Shown one piece after another: positions 8,376 to 60,423 of a stretch of DNA of 64,000 nucleotides (position 1 is the first letter of the stretch; each line of letters opens with the position of its first letter). The stretch covers positions 9,926,001 to 9,990,000 of the forward strand of contig NC_136001.1 in the NCBI RefSeq assembly GCF_048128805.1. The letters run 5' to 3'. A model generated the notes under the pieces. The model saw only the letters and a list, made by a program, of their open reading frames with translations. It made no database searches and was not told the origin of the DNA. The translations under genes and the position numbers were made by a program. Source of the DNA: Centroberyx gerrardi (lineage: Eukaryota > Chordata > Actinopteri > Beryciformes > Berycidae).

Positions 8376-9309
8376 TCACCAGGGTCTCCACAGCGGCCTT
8401 CTTCCACCTGCCGTGACGCATGCCTGTGCGCCCATCCCGGCCCTGCCAGCCTGCAGGGGGGCCCGGCTGAACTGATGCACCAGTTTGTGCTGAGAGTCGG
8501 TCGGCTGGTTGTGCGTGGAAAGGAAACGGAGCGTCTCTTGCAGGCACCTGGTGAAGCCCTCTTCAAAACCCCGACCAGGTGTCCCGACCATCCCAGGGGT
8601 CCCAGCGGCCTTGGGCCGCAGGTTCTCCTTCAGGTAACTCACTGCAGTCTCCAGGATGTCCGCTTTCTCCAGTTTGGAGGTGGGTTGGTGCGCCTGCAGC
8701 TCCTTTTCCAGGAGAGATTTCAGCTGCTGGATGCTGCTGTTGATGCGAGCCCTGCGCATCTTTTCCACCGCTGGTTTTCTCAACTGGAAGCGGAGGAAAA
8801 CACAACATCATACATTGGATTTTTTAAGCAACAAGCTTGCTTCGGCTCTTAAATCAGTGTAAATCACGGTCTCGAGTTACCCTATAGGCTAAAACAACTA
8901 CACACCTGTGTAGCCTAATAAAAAGAAACACAGATATTCAAGAAATCTATTAGACTATAGGCTATAATTAAATGTCATTTTAGTAATATAGTCCTAGTAG
9001 CCTAATATAATCCTTTAGTAACAGTAAAAACCACATGGTTGCTAAGCGACACAGTCTACCTGTAATGGTGATTGTCTGTTAGTGTAGGCTATTAATATTC
9101 AAATGAGCGGTTACGTGGCCACAGGTGTGCGTTTATTGGGTAGGCTATTTTACGACGGCTTCGAACGCGACTCAGCCAATCAGAACTGAGGACTGGAAGT
9201 AAACACACAAAGGAACTGAAGGATTAGACAGTTGTAATAGCCTACTCACTTTGACGTTGTCCTTGCCAGTAGGCCTAAACACAACACTGTGAGCTTTGAC
9301 AGGTGCCAT
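8376..9309 (-). CDS. Hes5-like bHLH-Orange repressor (Her family), 155 aa
   Basis: A predicted Notch-responsive nuclear repressor. Exon 1 (9250-9309) encodes MAPVKAHSVVFRPTGKDNVK and ends at a GTGAGT donor. Exon 2 (8376-8783) starts after CAG with LRKPAVEKMRRARIN. Both introns and the MAP start match the other her genes here. The bHLH spans about residues 21-75, with the family proline in the basic region. The Orange domain reads EEGFTRCLQETLRFL, and the protein ends in WRPW, the Groucho/TLE-binding tetrapeptide. The C-terminal third is rich in Gly, Ala and Pro. A TATA box and a canonical RBPJ site lie upstream. It might be the her2 or her12 orthologue; I cannot decide between them from memory, so no symbol is given. 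Confidence 0.9.
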
Positions 9310-15555: not shown

Positions 15556-16147
15556 ATGGCTCCTACCTACACCAGAGACTCTCCCTGCTCAATGCTCTCT
15601 ACCAAAGACAGGCACAAAGTAAGTATTGCTATCCATCCAGAAGTGACTATTCAAATTACTGAACTATTTTTCCTTGTGGCTTGAATTTAGTGAACATATA
15701 TCTGACCAAGCTCCTCATTTTGTCTTACAGCTGAGGAAACCAGTTGTGGAGAAGATGCGCAGAGATCGCATCAACAGCTGCATCGAGCAGCTCAAGACCC
15801 TGCTGGAGAAAGAGTTCCAGAAGCAGGATCCCAACGCCAAGCTGGAGAAGGCCGACGTCCTGGAGATGACGGTGGTGTTCCTGAAGCAGCAGCTGCAGCC
15901 TCAGAGCCCGGCCGCTCACAGGGCCCACAGCGAGGGCTACACCCAGTGCTGGAAGGAGACGCTGCACTTCCTGTCTGCCAACTCCTTGAAGGAAGTGACG
16001 CTCCCGCACCTCCAGTACGTCCACGCCGCCCACAGAGCCGGCCAGGACATCTGCCCCACCTCTGCCCTGTCCTCCGTCCACAGCCAGAGCCACAGCCAGG
16101 TGAAGCAGGCTCCCAGCACCACCAAAGCTGTGTGGAGGCCGTGGTAG
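15556..16147 (+). CDS. her15: Her15-type bHLH-Orange-WRPW repressor, copy 1, 159 aa
   Basis: A predicted Notch target repressor of neurogenesis. Exon 1 (15556-15618) encodes MAPTYTRDSPCSMLSTKDRHK. A 112-nt intron follows, and exon 2 is 15731-16147. The bHLH runs from L22 to about L76 with LRKPVVEKMRRDRIN, the Hes-type basic region with its proline. The Orange domain begins near SEGYTQCWKETLHFL (88-102), and WRPW is at 156-159. A His/Ser/Gln-rich linker lies before WRPW. It is nearly identical to the inverted copy at 20 kb; in exon 2 the proteins differ at only two positions (Ile/Val in GQD-C and Val/Ile in SS-H). The her15 name rests on remembered similarity and on zebrafish also having two her15 genes; treat it as provisional. 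Confidence 0.9.
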
Positions 16148-16780
16148 ACGCTCCAGAGACTCTTTCTCAGACTGGATGGCTGTTCGCCGTCATGAATGCT
16201 GTAGGAGATGGATTTCCAGATTATTGAAAGGATGTTTTTTTCTATTTTTTGAAATGAACTTTCTCATGCTCTTAAAGAAAGAGTTGAAATGACGTTTAGA
16301 TTTCTTCATATTGAAGAAAGTGTTCTGAAGGGACGCTGTTGACCATGTTGTTGTCGACAGTGTTTGTGCTCCCTTGGCGCACAGTTGTACTTCATTAATC
16401 CTCCCATTTTCTATGAGGATGGTTTGTAAAGATATTGTCTTCATGTGGATGTTTGCTAAGCCAACTGAAACCTTGCCTTAAACCTCATTATGATTCTATT
16501 AGTCTCTTTAAATGATGTTGTTTTCACTTATTGAATGCCTTTTGTAAAGGCTTTGTTGGAACCCCAGGTGTTCCAAAGGAGGCATTGTTGTGCCGTGAAG
16601 TGACATGTTGACACTGTGTGTTTGCTGCAATCGCTTGGTAAAGTGATTAAATGTTATAACAAAACCACTTTTCTTGTAGAAAAGTAAAGCCTTTAAAATT
16701 AGTGCATGTAGTCTCAAAGAGAACTGTGCATAACAATTTGCTGACTGAAAATAAACATTGTACAAATGATCATGCTCTTT
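16148..16780 (+). other. her15: her15 copy 1 3'UTR
   Basis: An AATAAA at 16750-16755 ends a 3'UTR of about 620 bases. After the first 55 bases it is unrelated to the 3'UTR of the mirror copy. Confidence 0.65.
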
Positions 16781-17198
16781 TCCGTGTTTCCTTGTTCTGG
16801 AGATTATGCAAAAATAAGAAAATGTAACTTTCTTTCTGTAGTATATAATAAAATATCAATATGTCTATTGATATTTTATTTAATAAATCATTAGACAATT
16901 TCAATAGTTCCACTGGGAATAATTATTAAATTGAAGGCAGGTCTGACCTGCTTTGAACAACCATCATTATCGCCTCTATAAAACATTAGGATAGAAGGCA
17001 TAAATCTGCTGGTGAGCATGATAAGGGAGTATTGATTGGGTTTTACGTTCATTAATCAATGAACATGGAAGTTGTTCTGTGTAAACCACTGATACAGCAT
17101 CTGACCTCATGGGTTTAGAGGTCTTCCCACTTTCCCACACTCTTTAACCAATACAAACCCCTTTGTGACAACAGATAATGCCAATTATTATGCATTTG

Positions 17199-17200
<2 letters not shown>

Positions 17201-17243
<43 letters not shown>
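17201..17243. repeat. (GT)n microsatellite
   Basis: A perfect GT dinucleotide tract. Confidence 0.93.
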
Positions 17244-17244
<1 letters not shown>

Positions 17245-17444
17245 TTAGGAGGGAGAGGGGGGGTTGAGAGTCGTGTTTGTATCTCTGAGATGTTATCAGG
17301 GTTTGGGGGTCAATTCAATCGATTCGGGAAATGGATTTTACTCAACATGCGAAAACTGGCGCTTGTTACCCCTAAAAAGATTCTTATGTAATGTGAATGT
17401 GTTTCTTTATTGATCCCGTTCTCTTTTTGCTCGCCCCTGGAGCT

Positions 17445-17560
17445 GGTAGGTTTTTTAGTGTCGTGCTCCAGGACACTTCAGCAGGGCCGACGGTTCAAAC
17501 CTGAGACGTCCAGCTGAAGAAAGCTCTCTGTCTACTCACTACACCACCCTGTTTTCTACC
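17445..17560 (-). repeat. Fish dispersed-repeat fragment
   Basis: The phrases 'GTGCTCCAGGACACTTCAGC', 'GTTCAAACCTGAGACG' and 'CACTACACCACCCTG' match a widespread fish repeat of tRNA-like or LINE-tail character. It is a diverged fragment. Confidence 0.5.
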
Positions 17561-17692
17561 CAATCTTATGCCCATTCTACAGTGAAATTATTGAGCATGA
17601 AACTACTACCATAATTATACAAACTGCAGTGTCAGTGTGCAATGCATTGAGTGAATTGAAGGTGAATTGATCCCAATCAATGTTATTATGGG

Positions 17693-17755
17693 AGGCAGGG
17701 TGGCCTAATAGTTAGAGACGGGACCTGAATTCAAGCCCCGATGTTGTGTGCATGT
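17693..17755 (+). repeat. tRNA-derived SINE head fragment
   Basis: GTGGCCTAATAGTTAGAGA fits a pol III A box, and a GAATTCAAGCC phrase sits where a B box would lie. It is degenerate, short and runs into a GT-rich tract. Confidence 0.45.
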
Positions 17756-17812
17756 CTGTGTACGTGTGGGCTTGTGTGTTTGTGTGTGTTTGTGTGTGTG
17801 TGTGTGTTTGCT
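17755..17812. repeat. GT-rich microsatellite
   Basis: An imperfect GT/TTTG tract directly after the SINE-like fragment. Confidence 0.8.
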
Positions 17813-19499
17813 CAAGTACAGTGTGTAAACCCCTCAGCTCTCACCTGGGAGAACAGACCTGCCCTGCAGCCTGGCTTACACCTGCTTGCGTCAGACGTGG
17901 GGCAGAGATTTTCCCACGGTTTTACGCAGGTCTGGTTACAAGCACAGGCCCATCCTGTCATATACACATCAACACCGGGCTCTTCAAAGACAAGCTCACC
18001 CAGTGAGTCTTGTTGTGTTACGAAGCCAATAAACTCCAGCTACTGTAGGCGTCTCCTGTTGTTACCCTTACCCTTGCACAAAATGTCAGAAAATCCAGAG
18101 TGAAATCAGACAGCAGTTCAAGTGTGATCAGAGATCGATTGGAAAAAAGCTTGAATCAGTCAAACAATAGTCAAGTCGTGATCAGAGATAAAAGAATTAG
18201 ACATTCAATTTAATATATTGTGCATATATGCAAGATACAAGCTATTGATTGTTGAAGTGTTTGAGTGACTGTATCTTTCAATTGGAACAGTTATCTACTG
18301 ATTATTTGACACTGACAAACACCATGTGGATAAAATGGCAAGCCTAGTTTTCCCTCCAGATCTAGAGACAGATTTGTAAGGGGAGGAAGGGGGGGCAGCG
18401 GGGTCAGGAGGATTCTCACCATCATGGCTGGGGGATAATTTAACACGGCACACTTCCTTTGTCCCGGGGATGAAGGGGGAGAATGGCTCAGGAGTGTGGG
18501 AAAGCTGTGGAGAGGCAGGCTCCACACAGGGGAGACGCGCCCTCCAGCCCGGCAGCGGCTCAGCTTACCAGCTGTTTGATGAAACCGGAGCTGACAGAGC
18601 CCACTACTCAACGGCAGCCTGGGGCTTAGCACACAAAGCACAAGGCAGGCACGCTCGGACACACTCGCACACAAGCGCTAACCCCGCTCACGGGCGCCCT
18701 CCTGCACGTGTGAGAGCATGGTTTCTGAATCCGATTTACAGAGGACATAAGGTTGATTACTCAAAACATGCTATATGCATAACCCTTATGTACTTTACAT
18801 ATGCAGGCCCTGTCCCACATGAGCATGGACCCTCTCACATTGACACACCCCCCCCAATGTAAAAACATGAGAAAACACCTGACTTTTACATGAAGTAAAC
18901 TGACCAGGTGAATCCAGGTGAAAGCTCCCACATTTTGAAAACCAATTCAGTCATGAAGGATATTTGTAGATGAAAAGGAGGAAGAAGGATTTGATCCTTG
19001 AGACAGTTGAGACATGGCTGTTAAATATTTGGAAGTAGTATGTTGTATACATGTATTCAAACATACAGTATACTCCAGGGATATACTCCAGAGTGACATA
19101 GAAAGGCAGGAAATCATGGGATGAAAAGCGGAAATACAGAAATTTCTATTTGAAATCAACTGTTCATGAAATCAATATTCATGTGTTCTGAAAAATCTTG
19201 AAAAACCAAGAGTAGTTATATCTCTTATTTACCTGTTATCAGCTGTTGTTTTCATCTAATGATTTCTGAAGGATGGGTAATTTCTAATTATCTTAAAATA
19301 ACTACTCAATGCCAGTGTGATATTAGTGTGATGCTGAATTACAATATTGCAATATCTTGACATTCACTTACAGTGATCAGAAATAATGTAGACCGTTCTC
19401 TTTACCACTCTGCTGCAGAGCAACAGTGGCTCTTGTACAGTTTAATATGATTGAATGTCTGGAATGAAATTAAACAAGGGAAATGACTCAAACTTTGAA

Positions 19500-19975
19500 A
19501 AATATAAAATAATTTTATTTGGTGTAAACATCAGTTGGCACATATGGTTTAGGCTCGACTACACATAACAAAATAATATTTCACAGTAATATTCCTTTAC
19601 AAAAGGTTCCCAGATTCACTTCACATGGAAGATGTCATACATGGGAGAAGTCTTCTCCACTACATTATGCATTACAGTTTATATTCATCATTAGAATTAA
19701 GTCATCGACTCCACAGGAGTCAAATATCTGATTGGTAGGAGGTTTTCATAATGCGAATGCAAAATTTCCTACACATGCACATTGAAAATTAGCCTTTACA
19801 TTGTAACGGCTCATCGGCTCCTTACTGGAGTAAATAAAGCAACAAATCTTGTTACATGATGCTTCCTGTCCAACATACAGTAATTCAAGGCCACAGTCAC
19901 TGAGTGTAGAAATATCCTATACAGCCTTCATGACGGCGAACAGCCATCCAGTCTGAGAAAGAGTCTCTGGAGCGT
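19500..19975 (-). other. her15: her15 copy 2 3'UTR
   Basis: Read on minus, an AATAAA (TTTATT on plus, 19514-19519) ends a 3'UTR of about 460 bases. It is unrelated to that of copy 1 beyond the first 55 bases. Confidence 0.6.
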
Positions 19976-20569
19976 CTACCACGGCCTCCACACAGCTTTG
20001 GTGGTGCTGGGAGCCTGCTTCACCTGGCTGTGGCTCTGGCTGTGGATGGAGGACAGGGCAGAGGTGGGGCAGACGTCCTGGCCGGCTCTGTGGGCGGCGT
20101 GGACGTACTGGAGGTGCGGGAGCGTCACTTCCTTCAAGGAGTTGGCAGACAGGAAGTGCAGCGTCTCCTTCCAGCACTGGGTGTAGCCCTCGCTGTGGGC
20201 CCTGTGAGCGGCCGGGCTCTGAGGCTGCAGCTGCTGCTTCAGGAACACCACCGTCATCTCCAGGACGTCGGCCTTCTCCAGCTTGGCGTTGGGATCCTGC
20301 TTCTGGAACTCTTTCTCCAGCAGGGTCTTGAGCTGCTCGATGCAGCTGTTGATGCGATCTCTGCGCATCTTCTCCACAACTGGTTTCCTCAGCTGTAAGA
20401 CAAAATGAGGAGCTTGGTCAGATATATGTTCACTAAATTCAAGCCACAAGGAAAAATAGTTCAGTAATTTGAATAGTCACTATGGTGGATGGATAGCAAT
20501 ACTTACTTTGTGCCTGTCTTTGGTAGAGAGCATTGAGCAGGGAGAGTCTCTGGTGTAGGTAGGAGCCAT
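19976..20569 (-). CDS. her15: Her15-type bHLH-Orange-WRPW repressor, copy 2, 159 aa
   Basis: Exon 1 (20507-20569) encodes the same MAPTYTRDSPCSMLSTKDRHK as copy 1. The intron is 114 nt, and exon 2 (19976-20392) carries bHLH, Orange and WRPW in the same positions. The protein has Val in GQDVC and Ile in SSIH where copy 1 has Ile and Val. Promoter, splice sites and stop are intact, so both copies should be functional. Near-identity confined to the gene and promoter, with unrelated 3' flanks, suggests a recent inverted duplication or continuing gene conversion. Same caution on the name as for copy 1. Confidence 0.9.
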
Positions 20570-23717: not shown

Positions 23718-24490
23718 ATGGCTCCTGTAACCCAAAACAGGTCTGAGGATCGGCCTGCATCTGTTGAGAATAACAGCTCCAACAAGGTGAGTAATTTCGG
23801 ATATTTGGCTTTTTCCTGATTGCCATTAGATGAAACTTCAATAATCCCCGCGGGGAAACTGCATTGTAGTAGAGAAAAGGATAGCTATAGCCTAGAGAAC
23901 ATACTGATGATATTACAGCAGACACGTAAATGGAAAAAATAAATAATCCCAATGTAAACGTTTTAGGCTACATGAGCCTTTTCAGATTGCTCCTCTTCAT
24001 ATTTGATCTAACTTATCTAATTATCTATTGTTTATCATTTATCTAATTTCGACTTTTATGTCTTATACCCTAGTTGCGAAAACTCATGGTGGAGAAAGTA
24101 AGGAGGGACCGCATCAATCACAGCATCGAGCAATTAAGAGCACTTCTGAACCAAGGAGAGCCGAGCGGCGGGCAGCCGCCCAACAAGCTGGAGAAAGCTG
24201 ACATCCTGGAGATGGCAGTGAGCTTCCTGCGGCAGAGGGCCATGGCCTGCGTCGCTCCCAGCTACTCCCAAGGTTTCTCCCAGTGTCTTCAGGAGACCCT
24301 CCGGCACCTGTCGCTTCACGCCCCTCTGCAGCCCGCAGAGAGAGAGGAAATCAAGCGCTTCTACGTCCTCCAGAGAGCCGCCCTGCAGCGGCACATGTCA
24401 GGAGAGCAGGGCCGACGGACTGTTGCGAGGAAGCGGTCATCGTCCAGGTCATCAGCGCGGTCCCACAGCTCACTGTGGAGGCCGTGGTAG
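23718..24490 (+). CDS. Hes5-like bHLH-Orange-WRPW repressor with altered basic region, 161 aa
   Basis: Exon 1 (23718-23786) encodes MAPVTQNRSEDRPASVENNSSNK. A 287-nt intron follows, and exon 2 is 24074-24490. The second exon begins LRKLMVEKVRRDRIN, so the proline that marks Hes/Her basic regions (RKP) is replaced by leucine. The loop (EPSGGQPPNK) is rich in Gly and Pro, and helix 2 reads KLEKADILEMAVSFL. The Orange domain begins near YSQGFSQCLQETLRHL. The tail is strongly basic and serine-rich (RKRSSSRSSARSHSS) before WRPW. Splice sites, TATA and RBPJ site are intact. It could be a her12 or her2 orthologue; not resolved. An ATTAAA at 24875-24880 is a possible poly(A) signal. Confidence 0.9.
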
Positions 24491-34501: not shown

Positions 34502-34980
34502 TTAAAGGCACAGTGGAGCCACGTCTTCCTCTGAGGCGGGAAAGAGACGCAGAATCTCCCTTGAATATTTGGAGTAGCCGTTGTGTGACAGCAGGGCCTT
34601 TCTCAGGGTGAAGAAGGACACCGTTTTCTCCAGGATGTCCGAAGCAGGGATCCCATTCTGCAGGTGCTCTCCAATCAGAGCCTTCAGCTTCTCCACTCCA
34701 CTGCTGCATTTCCTCTCCAACATGTGGAGTTTGCACCTGAGAGGAAAAAAAACAATCATTAATACATTGTGTCATAGAAATAACCTTGAACTGTTTGTTT
34801 GTCAGTTTGGTGAAGGCTGGGAGAATTGAATGAAATAAAAACTGTGTTCCAACATGTGGAGTTTACATCTGAGAGCAGTTTGGTATGGTCCATAAGTATT
34901 CAGTGAAACAGAGCCTTGGCTTACCTAAAGAGCTGCTCCTTCACGCTGTCCTGAATAGCAAGGTCCAAGTAGGAAGACAT
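34502..34980 (-). CDS. Short HLH-Orange protein lacking basic region and WRPW, 96 aa
   Basis: Exon 1 (34925-34980) encodes MSSYLDLAIQDSVKEQLF and ends at a GTAAGC donor. Exon 2 (34502-34736) starts after CTCTCAG, and the phase-2 join gives R then CKLHMLERKCSSGVEKLKAL. Helix 1 (ERKCSSGVEKLKALIGEHL), a shortened loop, helix 2 (SDILEKTVSFF) and an Orange-like segment (NGYSKYSREILRLF) align with her4. The KxRRxRIN basic motif is absent and the protein ends EEDVAPLCL with no WRPW. Splice sites, start and a TATA-like CATAAATG upstream are intact. It sits at the centre of the inner her4 palindrome. It may be a dimerisation-only modulator of Her proteins, or a decaying copy. No named family is recognised, and expression is not shown. 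Confidence 0.7.
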
Positions 34981-35260
34981 TTTCAGATTTGTTTCTTGAG
35001 TTTGTAGATTTTCTCAGAAAAAAATGAAGTTTTGCTGCAAGTTTGTTCGCAAGAGGCCTTGTGATTGAGTCGCTGTTGCTCCTGTCCTTTTGCAGCTGGT
35101 CTTGCGTGCGTTCAGAGGATCTTCTCCTTTGACGTCTGCATCTCTACTCCGCATTTATGCCCCTCATCCTGCGCTGTCTCTGCTGTTTGGCCAATCAGGA
35201 GGCTCGGAGCTCGGGACAATAGACTGAATTTAATGGCTGCCACACAGAACAGGTGGGATG
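34981..35260 (-). promoter_or_regulatory. Putative promoter of the short HLH gene
   Basis: On minus: CATAAATG at about 35,152-35,159 (TATA-like), a CCAAT box (CCAATCA on plus near 35,191) and GACAATAG near 35,215 (on plus). The layout resembles that of her genes. Confidence 0.5.
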
Positions 35261-35749
35261 TTGTTCTTTATGCCATATGTCAAAGAGATTGGCCAAAATA
35301 TTCCCTGGGAAAGTTGCAGTGCCTATGTGGACTTCCCAAAATCTGGTTTCTCACAGACATATTAAAACTCAAATCGTATGAACTGACGCAAGAAGTGACT
35401 ACGACAAAAAACAACACATATCAGTAAATCAGTAATAAATAATTTCAGTGTTTCTACTGTGGTCATTCATTTGAAGAACATACTGTCTTCTGCGAGAAAC
35501 ATTCCAGGCATACTGTAATGACGGGAATATGAAAAACAGTAATAGCTGACAGGGTTTAATTATTATTAAAGCCTCCAAATTAAACACATAGTTGAAATTG
35601 ATTAATATCTCAAATATGCCATAGAAGTTATATGTTGTTTATTTTCTTTCACTGCAGCAAGCTGTGAGTTATTACTGACCCAGATGGATCAGTAAACTGT
35701 AAACTGTCACTAAAGCCCCCCTCCTGTCCCTGCATGGGAACTGTCCTGA

Positions 35750-37126: not shown

Positions 37127-37724
37127 ATGGCTCCTACAATCACTTCAGCAATGACCAATTCTCAGGAGCAGCTGACTCTGACACACAAGGTAAATTGAAG
37201 GCTCAAGATCATGGACACTTCAACATCATTCATGTTCCTACTTATGTATCTTCATGTTATTCTCCAGAATAAGTTTATTAATGACTTTCTTCCTCCTTCT
37301 GCAGCTCAGAAAGCCAGTGGTGGAGAAGTTACGCAGAGAGCGAATCAACAGCAGCATTGAGCAGCTCAAGTCTCTCCTGGGTCCAGAGTTCCTCAAACAG
37401 CAGCCTGACTCCAAGCTGGAGAAAGCAGACATCCTGGAGATGACAGTTTGCTTCCTGACACGACAGCAGCAGCACCAACCTGTGGACTCAGCAGCTGTCA
37501 ATCAGGGCTACTCCAGGTGTGTCCAAGAGGTGGAGCACTTCCTGTCCAAGGAGGAGGTGAAGACACAGTCCCAGAGAAGACTTCTGAACCACTTCCACAA
37601 CCTGCAGTCTTCCTCTGATCAGAACCTGAGAGAGACTGGCTTGTCTCTTCTGAGCTGCCCAGTCCAGACCAGCATCAGCAAAGAGAAGAGTCCAGTCCAC
37701 GGCGCCCTCTGGAGGCCGTGGTAG
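37127..37724 (+). CDS. her4: Her4-type repressor, copy 3, 160 aa
   Basis: Exon 1 37127-37189, 115-nt intron, exon 2 37305-37724. This is the shortest intact her4 protein, with a single SKEKSPVH unit before GALWRPW. The bHLH and Orange domains match copy 1, including Thr in NLRETGL. About 10 bases after the stop codon the 3' flank departs from the usual her4 sequence. Start, splice sites and stop are intact. It forms a divergent pair with copy 2 with the short HLH gene between them. Confidence 0.92.
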
Positions 37725-59765: not shown

Positions 59766-60423
59766 TCAGTTTGTGTGGTGTGAGCTCCAGTCTGCAGATC
59801 TCTGCCACGGCCTCCAGAGGGCGCTGTGGACTGGACTCTTCTCTTTGCTGTGGACTGGACTCTTCTCTTTGCTGATGCTGGTCTGGACTGGGCAGCTCAG
59901 AAGAGACAAGCCAGCCTCTCTCAGGTTCTGATCAGAGGAAGACTGCAGGTTGTGGAAGTGGTTCAGCAGTCTTCTCTGGGACTGTGTCTTCACCTCCTCC
60001 TTGGACAGGAAGTGCTCCACCTCTTGGACACACCTGGAGTAGCCCTGATTGACAGCTGCTGAGTCCACAGGTTGGTGCTGCTGCTGTCGTGTCAGGAAGC
60101 AAACTGTCATCTCCAGGATGTCTGCTTTCTCCAGCTTGGAGTCAGGCTGCTGTTTGAGGAACTCTGGACCCAGGAGAGACTTGAGCTGCTCAATGCTGCT
60201 GTTGATTCACTCTCTGCGTAACTTCTCCACCACTGGCTTTCTGAGCTGCAGAAGGAAGAAAAAAGTCATTAATAAACTTTTTCTGGAGAATAACATGAAG
60301 ATGAATCAGTAGGAACATGAATGATGTTGAAGTGTCCATGATCTTGAGCCTTCAATTTACCTTGTGTGTCAGAGTCAGCTGCTCCTGAGAATTGGTCATT
60401 GCTGAAGTGATTGTAGGAGCCAT
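59766..60423 (-). pseudogene. her4: Her4-type copy 8, inactivated
   Basis: Exon 1 60361-60423, 115-nt intron and exon 2 from 60245 are as in the other copies, with intact splice sites and start. In the basic region the codon for Arg34 (RRERIN) is TGA at 60207-60209, a CGA-to-TGA change, which would end the protein after 33 residues. The normal TAG after WRPW is CAG at 59802-59804, so a protein from a downstream start would read on for 12 residues to 59,766 and bury the WRPW. The rest of the frame is open, with two SKEKSPVH units, so inactivation is recent. Promoter elements remain, and a transcript is possible. Confidence 0.88.

Follow-up and report, generated by a model that had tools for sequence, protein, structure and literature searches.

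A candidate HLH-Orange gene without a basic region in the two hes5-type her clusters of Centroberyx gerrardi

Neural stem cell maintenance and oscillation are set by the negative feedback between Notch and the her genes, and Id and Hes6 proteins modify Hes autorepression from outside the her clusters. Dimers of Id with Hes proteins cannot bind N-boxes, and Hes autorepression is relieved (PMC5665482). Hes6 dimerises with Hes1, changing the DNA binding of Hes1, and Her-Her dimers are well documented (PMC3125270). Moreover, a model of the segmentation clock is shaped by zebrafish Her/Hes6 dimers that do not bind DNA (PMC3404119). In the alignment of Hes6-like proteins of PMC3125270 the loop is shortened by five residues in Hes6 and Her13 and by three in Her8a and Her8.2; the basic domain is marked in this alignment, and Her8a has bHLH, Orange and WRPW. 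The hes5-type genes of zebrafish form two clusters on chromosomes 23 and 11 (PMC10112928; PMC8320183), and according to a passage in PMC10112928 these clusters consist of nine Hes5 homologues without any further gene. A full-text literature search, which covered few subscription papers, did not find a basic-less member of a hes5-type cluster described.

The window, that is the whole stretch of 64,000 nucleotides analysed here (G000:C5:9926001-9990000 in a genome of 779 Mb and 278 contigs), contains a candidate for such a member, called c1 in the following; c2 denotes its inverted copy on the same contig, C5, and c3 its paralogue on contig C14. With slightly better than even confidence we consider c1 a functional and old basic-less HLH-Orange gene of a hes5-type cluster, the product of which would be a titrating partner similar to Id or Hes6. 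That c1 is transcribed and titrates in an Id-like or Hes6-like way is what we infer, and the precedents of Id-Hes, Hes6 and Her/Hes6 dimers make such a titrating role plausible by analogy.

Gene structure, her array and family

The spliced exons of c1 (34502-34980, minus strand; Table 1) encode 96 amino acids in a two-exon frame. The sequence-only reading had proposed a protein of this length with helix 1, helix 2 and an Orange-like segment, and both the splicing and the alignment to the Her proteins bear this out. The start (AAAATG), the donor (TAG/GTAAGC) and the acceptor (TTTTCCTCTCAG/G) are all intact, and an open frame, a phase-2 intron and intact splice sites are common to c1, c2 and c3, whereas the intron is in phase 0 in the four her types of the window of which exon 1 was read. 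Exon 1 comprises 18 full codons in c1 but 6 in c3 and is not conserved between them. The beginning of exon 2 is almost repeated within the intron of c1 (34840-34880, minus strand), including an AG acceptor-like site (CTCAGATGTAAACTCCACATGTTGGA); this repeat, also present in c2, is either left over from a small tandem duplication or a decoy acceptor.

Table 1. Features of c1, its upstream region and the surrounding her array (positions in the window; upstream distances from the ATG)
Feature	Position	Strand	Remarks
c1 exon 1	34925..34980	-	MSSYLDLAIQDSVKEQLF + 2 nt, phase-2 intron; identical in c2, not conserved in c3
c1 intron	34737..34924	-	188 bp, GT-AG; 187 bp in c2, 417 bp in c3, phase unchanged
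c1 exon 2 and stop	34502..34736	-	basic-less helix 1, loop, helix 2, Orange-like segment, tail EDVAPLCL
TATA-like CATAAATG, -179	35152..35159	-	weak match
CCAAT box, -215	35191..35195	-	CCAAT on plus strand, ATTGG on coding strand; block GATTGGCCAAA common to c1, c2 and c3
E-box CACCTG, -275	35250..35255	.	in short block TCCCACCTGTT common to c1 and c3
Su(H)-like TGTGAGAA, -375	35348..35355	-	consensus match only; absent from c2
Exon 2 of head-to-head her4-type neighbour of c1 (D3)	37305..37724	+	arrangement alike on C14
her-type gene	8376-8807	-	open frame
her15-like inverted pair	15647-16147, 19976-20476	+, -	open frames
One further her-type gene	24074-24490	+	open frame
Nine her4-type copies	26602 to 62999		open frames

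The names her4 and her15-like are used here as our own reading of the sequences together with the zebrafish papers, not as the result of alignments to named fish proteins. When the next 40 kb of C5 are included, the her4-type copies number 14 in total, and in 11 of them exon 2 is open to the WRPW. The copy at 59766-60206 (minus strand) carries a TGA directly after LRRE in the basic region, and its stop after WRPW is changed so that the frame continues; it is thus a broken gene in a near-identical array. Two further copies on the plus strand at G000:C5:9992755 and 10000970 (L019/L017) end with ...HSAL just before the WRPW, keeping bHLH and Orange and losing the Groucho motif. Among the near-identical her4-type proteins between 26602 and 62999 the number of SKEKSPVH repeats before WRPW varies. 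The exon-2 coding sequences of the her15-like inverted pair (15647-20476) differ in two codons only, both amino-acid changing, which suggests recent duplication or gene conversion.

A protein search of the own genome with c1 returned five rows belonging to three genes, c1, c2 and c3, and the reverse search with c3 again led to these three alone; viral contigs and the contigs of prokaryote genomes contained no relatives, as expected. The inverted copy c2 (C5:10006089-10006563) lies 45 kb from c1, and its exon 2 differs by one amino acid. The ATG of c3 is found at position 7277150 of C14 and its exon 2 extends to 7277827; in this exon c1 and c3 share 57% of the residues over 77 codons without any indel. 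The neighbourhood of c3 is a second her cluster, in which there are two genes of the her15-like and one of the her4 type. The distance between the ATG of c1 and exon 2 of its head-to-head her4-type neighbour is about 2.3 kb on C5, that of the c3 counterpart on C14 about 2.9 kb; c2 is not arranged head-to-head, its left neighbour having the same orientation.

In a tree of 12 exon-2 proteins the c group stands apart from the hers with support of 100/100. The her15-like genes of C5 and C14 group together (97/96), and the her4-type genes form no single supported clade, several rows being long-branched. The dN between C5 and C14 is 0.31 for c1/c3, 0.28 for her4/her4' and 0.29 for the her15-like genes. 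Given these similar values and the tree, a block containing all three gene types was probably duplicated together. C5 is flanked by aldehyde-dehydrogenase exons, read as aldh4a1, and C14 by a class-C receptor (tas1r-like) and UBR4, with Pfam matches in 6 of the 7 frames scanned. The genes for aldh4a1, a tas1r-like receptor and UBR4 are neighbours at human 1p36. Together with the two zebrafish clusters on chromosomes 23 and 11, this layout would fit the teleost whole-genome duplication.

The c lineage is old and separate within the her clusters and not a recent derivative of her4; it is best explained as an offshoot of a her gene that arose earlier than the duplication yielding the two clusters and was retained in both. 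Its hes5-type descent is indicated by its location in both her clusters, with c1 and c3 head-to-head to her4-type genes, by the profile match of c1 to the hers and by the her4-like promoter of c3. The sequence-only reading had called c1 Her-derived, which is fair if understood as its own old lineage with two more members in the genome and not as a recent offshoot of her4. It had also asked for relatives in other fish; a conserved paralogue in the second cluster, c3, was found, the search covering the window's own genome alone among fish genomes.

Protein features and possible modes of action

The protein of c1 is 27-29% identical to the aligned hers. Helix 2 reads SDILEKTVSFF in c1 and ADILEMTVCFL in the hers, the Orange-like segment GYSKYSREILRLF in c1 and GYSRCVQEVEHFL in the hers, to which GYSK..RE can be aligned. 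The RR of the basic region is present in all nine aligned hers and missing in c1, c2 and c3; depending on the alignment, the basic region of c1 is a four-residue gap over LRRE or an ungapped replacement, and RR is lost in both. In addition, the loop of c1 is five residues shorter than that of the hers, and its end, which reads KLEK in eight of the nine aligned hers and KQEK in the remaining one, is a different sequence in c1. The C-termini EDVAPLCL (c1 and c2) and EDVAPLCCQ (c3) are devoid of WRPW, the place of which is occupied by a tail motif, RLFPAxxEDVAPLC, absent from the aligned hers. These alignments confirm the claim of the sequence-only reading that the KxRRxRIN motif and WRPW are lacking. 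Four signatures mark the c family: helix 1 begins with LERKCS, helix 2 contains KTVSFF, the Orange-like segment carries HNGY, and the C-terminal end has RLFPAxxEDVAPLC.

Against a profile built from six hers, the exon-2 protein of c1 scored 19.4 bits, which none of 20,000 shuffles reached (18,757 shuffles listed); c3 alone scored 6.7 bits, a value reached by 10 of 20,000 shuffles. hhalign of the three c members against seven hers gave an E-value of 2.9e-5 and a probability of 73.8. Pfam-A contained no family for c1 at E<=10 and none for c3, although HLH was found in all three hers tested. Hairy_orange was not matched by c1 or c3 in Pfam; the three tested hers also remained under the cut-off (15.0-24.2 versus 25.3 bits). 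Moreover, c1 was not among the 141 matches listed in a genome search with the Pfam HLH, for which 150 of 240 first-look candidates were scored, and no PDB sequence matched c1 at E<=10. As Pfam is blank for c1 and c3 and finds HLH in the hers, automatic annotation would overlook the domain. An AlphaFold2 model of c1 based on six window sequences has helices at residues 2-26, 31-50, 56-64 and 69-75 with a pLDDT of 54.7, too poor to use; the her4 control at equally shallow alignment depth reached 60.2.

How could such a protein act? Nineteen columns are hydrophobic in all nine aligned hers, and 14 of these are non-polar in c1 and likewise in c3. The five lost columns lie in the basic gap (one), the Orange-like segment (one) and the WRPW end (three). 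Nine of the 19 columns span helix 1 to helix 2 and were singled out after the table had been viewed; all nine are non-polar in c1 and c3, with alanine at two of them in c3. Since these helix 1-helix 2 columns are kept, dimerisation with neighbouring Her proteins is the most likely action. The helices of c1 would pair with proteins of the Her4 and Her15 type, and the mixed dimer would contain a single basic region and a single WRPW, for which reason neither binding to N-boxes or E-boxes nor recruitment of Groucho/TLE would be normal. Comparable to Id-Hes dimers, the c1/Her dimers would weaken her autorepression and the repression of target genes. An Id/Emc-like role thus fits the anatomy of c1, and a brake on the her cluster, as proposed by the sequence-only reading, would be a good hypothesis.

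The distribution of conservation along the protein leaves room for a different view. Upstream of D33, 13 of the 32 exon-2 residues are invariant in c1, c2 and c3, as compared to 31 of 45 from D33 to the C-terminus; conservation is strongest in helix 2, the Orange-like segment and the C-terminal tail, and helix 1 belongs to the weaker half. As the peak lies outside helix 1, a role other than that of Id or Emc is possible. The HLH could be a relic in a conserved protein that has another job, the Orange-like segment and the RLFPAxxEDVAPLC tail binding something else, which would agree with a tail motif not seen in the aligned hers and with an HLH that Pfam does not recognise. Nevertheless, non-polar residues at all nine helix 1-helix 2 columns in c1 and c3 are more than a relic would need, and we regard this explanation as unlikely.

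Alternatively, c1 may titrate proneural or E-type bHLH activators in the classical manner of Id, and so aid repression, instead of titrating Her repressors. The loop of c1 is, as we assume, about as short as that of Id proteins, which counts for this possibility. The non-functional dimers formed by Id proteins include those with proneural factors in addition to those with Hes (PMC5665482). Against it stand the Her-like character of helix 2 and of the Orange-like segment (SDILEKTVSFF, GYSK..RE) and the documented Her-Her pairing (PMC3125270), and activator titration appears slightly less probable still than a protein with another job, pairing of c1 with Her repressors being preferred.

Promoters and codon constraint

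The sequence-only reading had described the start, the splice signals, a CCAAT box and a TATA-like box as intact. The start, donor and acceptor are so and both boxes are present; the TATA-like element is a weak match located at -179, compared to TATA positions of -74 in her4, -79 in the her15-like gene and -94 in c3. The promoter of c3 contains ATTGG at -147, TGTGAGAA at -134 and TATAAGTA at -94; that of her4 contains TGTGAGAA at -128 and TATAAATA at -74, and that of the her15-like gene TGTGGGAA at -134 and TATAAATA at -79. Only 2 of 500 shuffles gave a local alignment as good as that between the c3 and her4 promoters. Between c1 and her4 no promoter similarity was detected, 244 of 500 shuffles being as good, and the promoters of c1 and c3 are only weakly alike, an equally good alignment being reached by 12 of 1000 shuffles. 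The E-box motif CACCTG found in the block shared by c1 and c3 is also present in the her4 promoter, at -229. In c1 and c2 the ATTGG box and a TATA-like element, again a weak one, are retained; around -130 both lack a Su(H) site, and each has more Su(H) matches further upstream. That c3 is controlled by Notch is suggested by its her-type promoter, in which a Su(H) site lies proximally; in the window copy c1 a control of this type would have been shifted or lost.

Constraint on the coding sequence was analysed with a two-sequence GY94 codon model (F3x4, own script) over the 77 codons that c1 and c3 share. Omega was 0.046, its 95% upper limit lying just below 0.15, and the comparison with omega=1 gave a 2dlnL of 50.7; as dS is saturated, this is an upper-bound statement for a single pair of lineages. 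The two genes differ by synonymous changes only in 22 codons and by amino-acid changes in 33. By the Nei-Gojobori method pS is 0.70 and pN 0.28, a ratio of 0.40. In a neutral simulation with substitutions only and c1 as the starting sequence, none of 500 pairs with open frames (14,108 pairs simulated) came down to this value, the lowest pN/pS being 0.45, and the number of pairs, out of 3000, in which neither frame was interrupted fell from 367 at 0.3 changes per site to 71 at 0.6 and 27 at 1.0. The same codon model gave omega values of 0.10 for the her4 pair and 0.28 for the her15-like pair; the c1-c3 figure, lower than those of the hers, depends on a saturated dS. Judged by dN, the c gene seems to be constrained about as strongly as her4 and the her15-like gene, the figures of which include variable tails. 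Hence dN/dS, which the sequence-only reading had asked for among orthologues and which was taken here between the paralogues c1 and c3, is about 0.05 and not near 1.

That exonic DNA is conserved as a regulatory element, for example an enhancer, and not as protein could be imagined from the head-to-head her4-type neighbour that the gene has on C5 as well as on C14. Between c1 and c3, however, codon positions 1, 2 and 3 differ at 23, 19 and 45 of 77 codons, and such an excess of third-position changes is the signature of coding constraint, which renders an enhancer very improbable.

A decaying her pseudogene that is open by chance is hardly credible: the absence of basic region and WRPW, the weak TATA, the loss of the proximal Su(H) site from c1 and c2 and the decay in the array (basic-region stop or WRPW loss in 3 of 14 C5 her4-type copies) would be in line with it, but it would have to account for a c1-c3 omega of about 0.05 with an upper bound of about 0.15, for 77 codons without an indel at saturated synonymous distance and for three open copies with one intron phase and intact splice sites. 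Neutrality is not rejected between c1 and c2 (2dlnL 0.6), which could also be quoted in favour of decay; these are recent copies that carry little information on selection, with two substitutions in exon 2, none in exon 1, one plus a 1-bp gap in the intron and 20 in 330 upstream bases. The view of the sequence-only reading that c1 is no simple dead copy thus receives support from the low dN/dS and the conserved paralogue c3.

Two other identities were considered. A recent her4 pseudogene is ruled out by the c3 paralogue, by omega and by the intron phase. Identity with zebrafish her2 (108 aa), compared by its description, is unlikely, as c1 has no basic region and the low identity to the aligned hers given above; for her2, an identity of 51% to Xenopus hes5.1 is given (PMC8320183 Table 1).

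Comparison with described systems

More tentatively, and with somewhat less than even confidence, the c genes may represent a fish family that is older than the duplication behind the two her clusters and encodes an HLH-Orange microprotein blind to DNA, in which a new C-terminal motif replaces WRPW. The family would lie head-to-head with her4, would have shared, at least ancestrally, its Notch-responsive type of promoter, and would serve the Notch/her circuit as an Id-like brake kept under strong selection in both clusters. If true, a DNA-blind cluster member under selection would be an intrinsic adjuster of the Notch/her feedback, and readings of her-cluster deletions would be complicated wherever the gene is present. 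Furthermore, automatic domain annotation can overlook a conserved gene even in clusters of a much-studied type, there being no Pfam match.

Like Id1-Id4 and Drosophila Emc, c1 has an HLH core without basic region, from which DNA-blind dimers would be expected. Unlike them, it has an Orange-like segment, a helix 2 of the Her type and a position in a her cluster. On the strength of helix 2, the Orange-like segment and the locus, c1 looks like a descendant of a her and not of an Id gene, and the missing basic region would be the sole sign of the Id family in it, both judgements referring to alignments to hers alone.

With the Hes6-like proteins (Hes6, Her13, Her8a), which modify other Hes/Her proteins through heterodimers, c1 shares the short loop, but it differs from them in having neither basic region nor WRPW. 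The Groucho tetrapeptide is also absent, according to the survey in PMC3396596, from DEC1/2, HESL and the zebrafish HES-group protein ENSDARP00000102196; DEC and HESL are placed there in clades other than HES5.

A further group is that of the Hes5-type Hers (zebrafish her4.1-4.5, her12, her15.1-15.2 and her2). Given the content of the zebrafish clusters stated in PMC10112928, the c gene may be missing or unannotated there. With this group c1 has in common the location in the cluster, helix 2, the Orange-like segment and the division into two coding exons, and c3 moreover has the her-like promoter with Su(H) and TATA elements. Compared to the hers of its own genome, c1 is set apart by the lack of basic region and WRPW, a loop shorter by five residues, the phase-2 intron and a C-terminal motif of its own.
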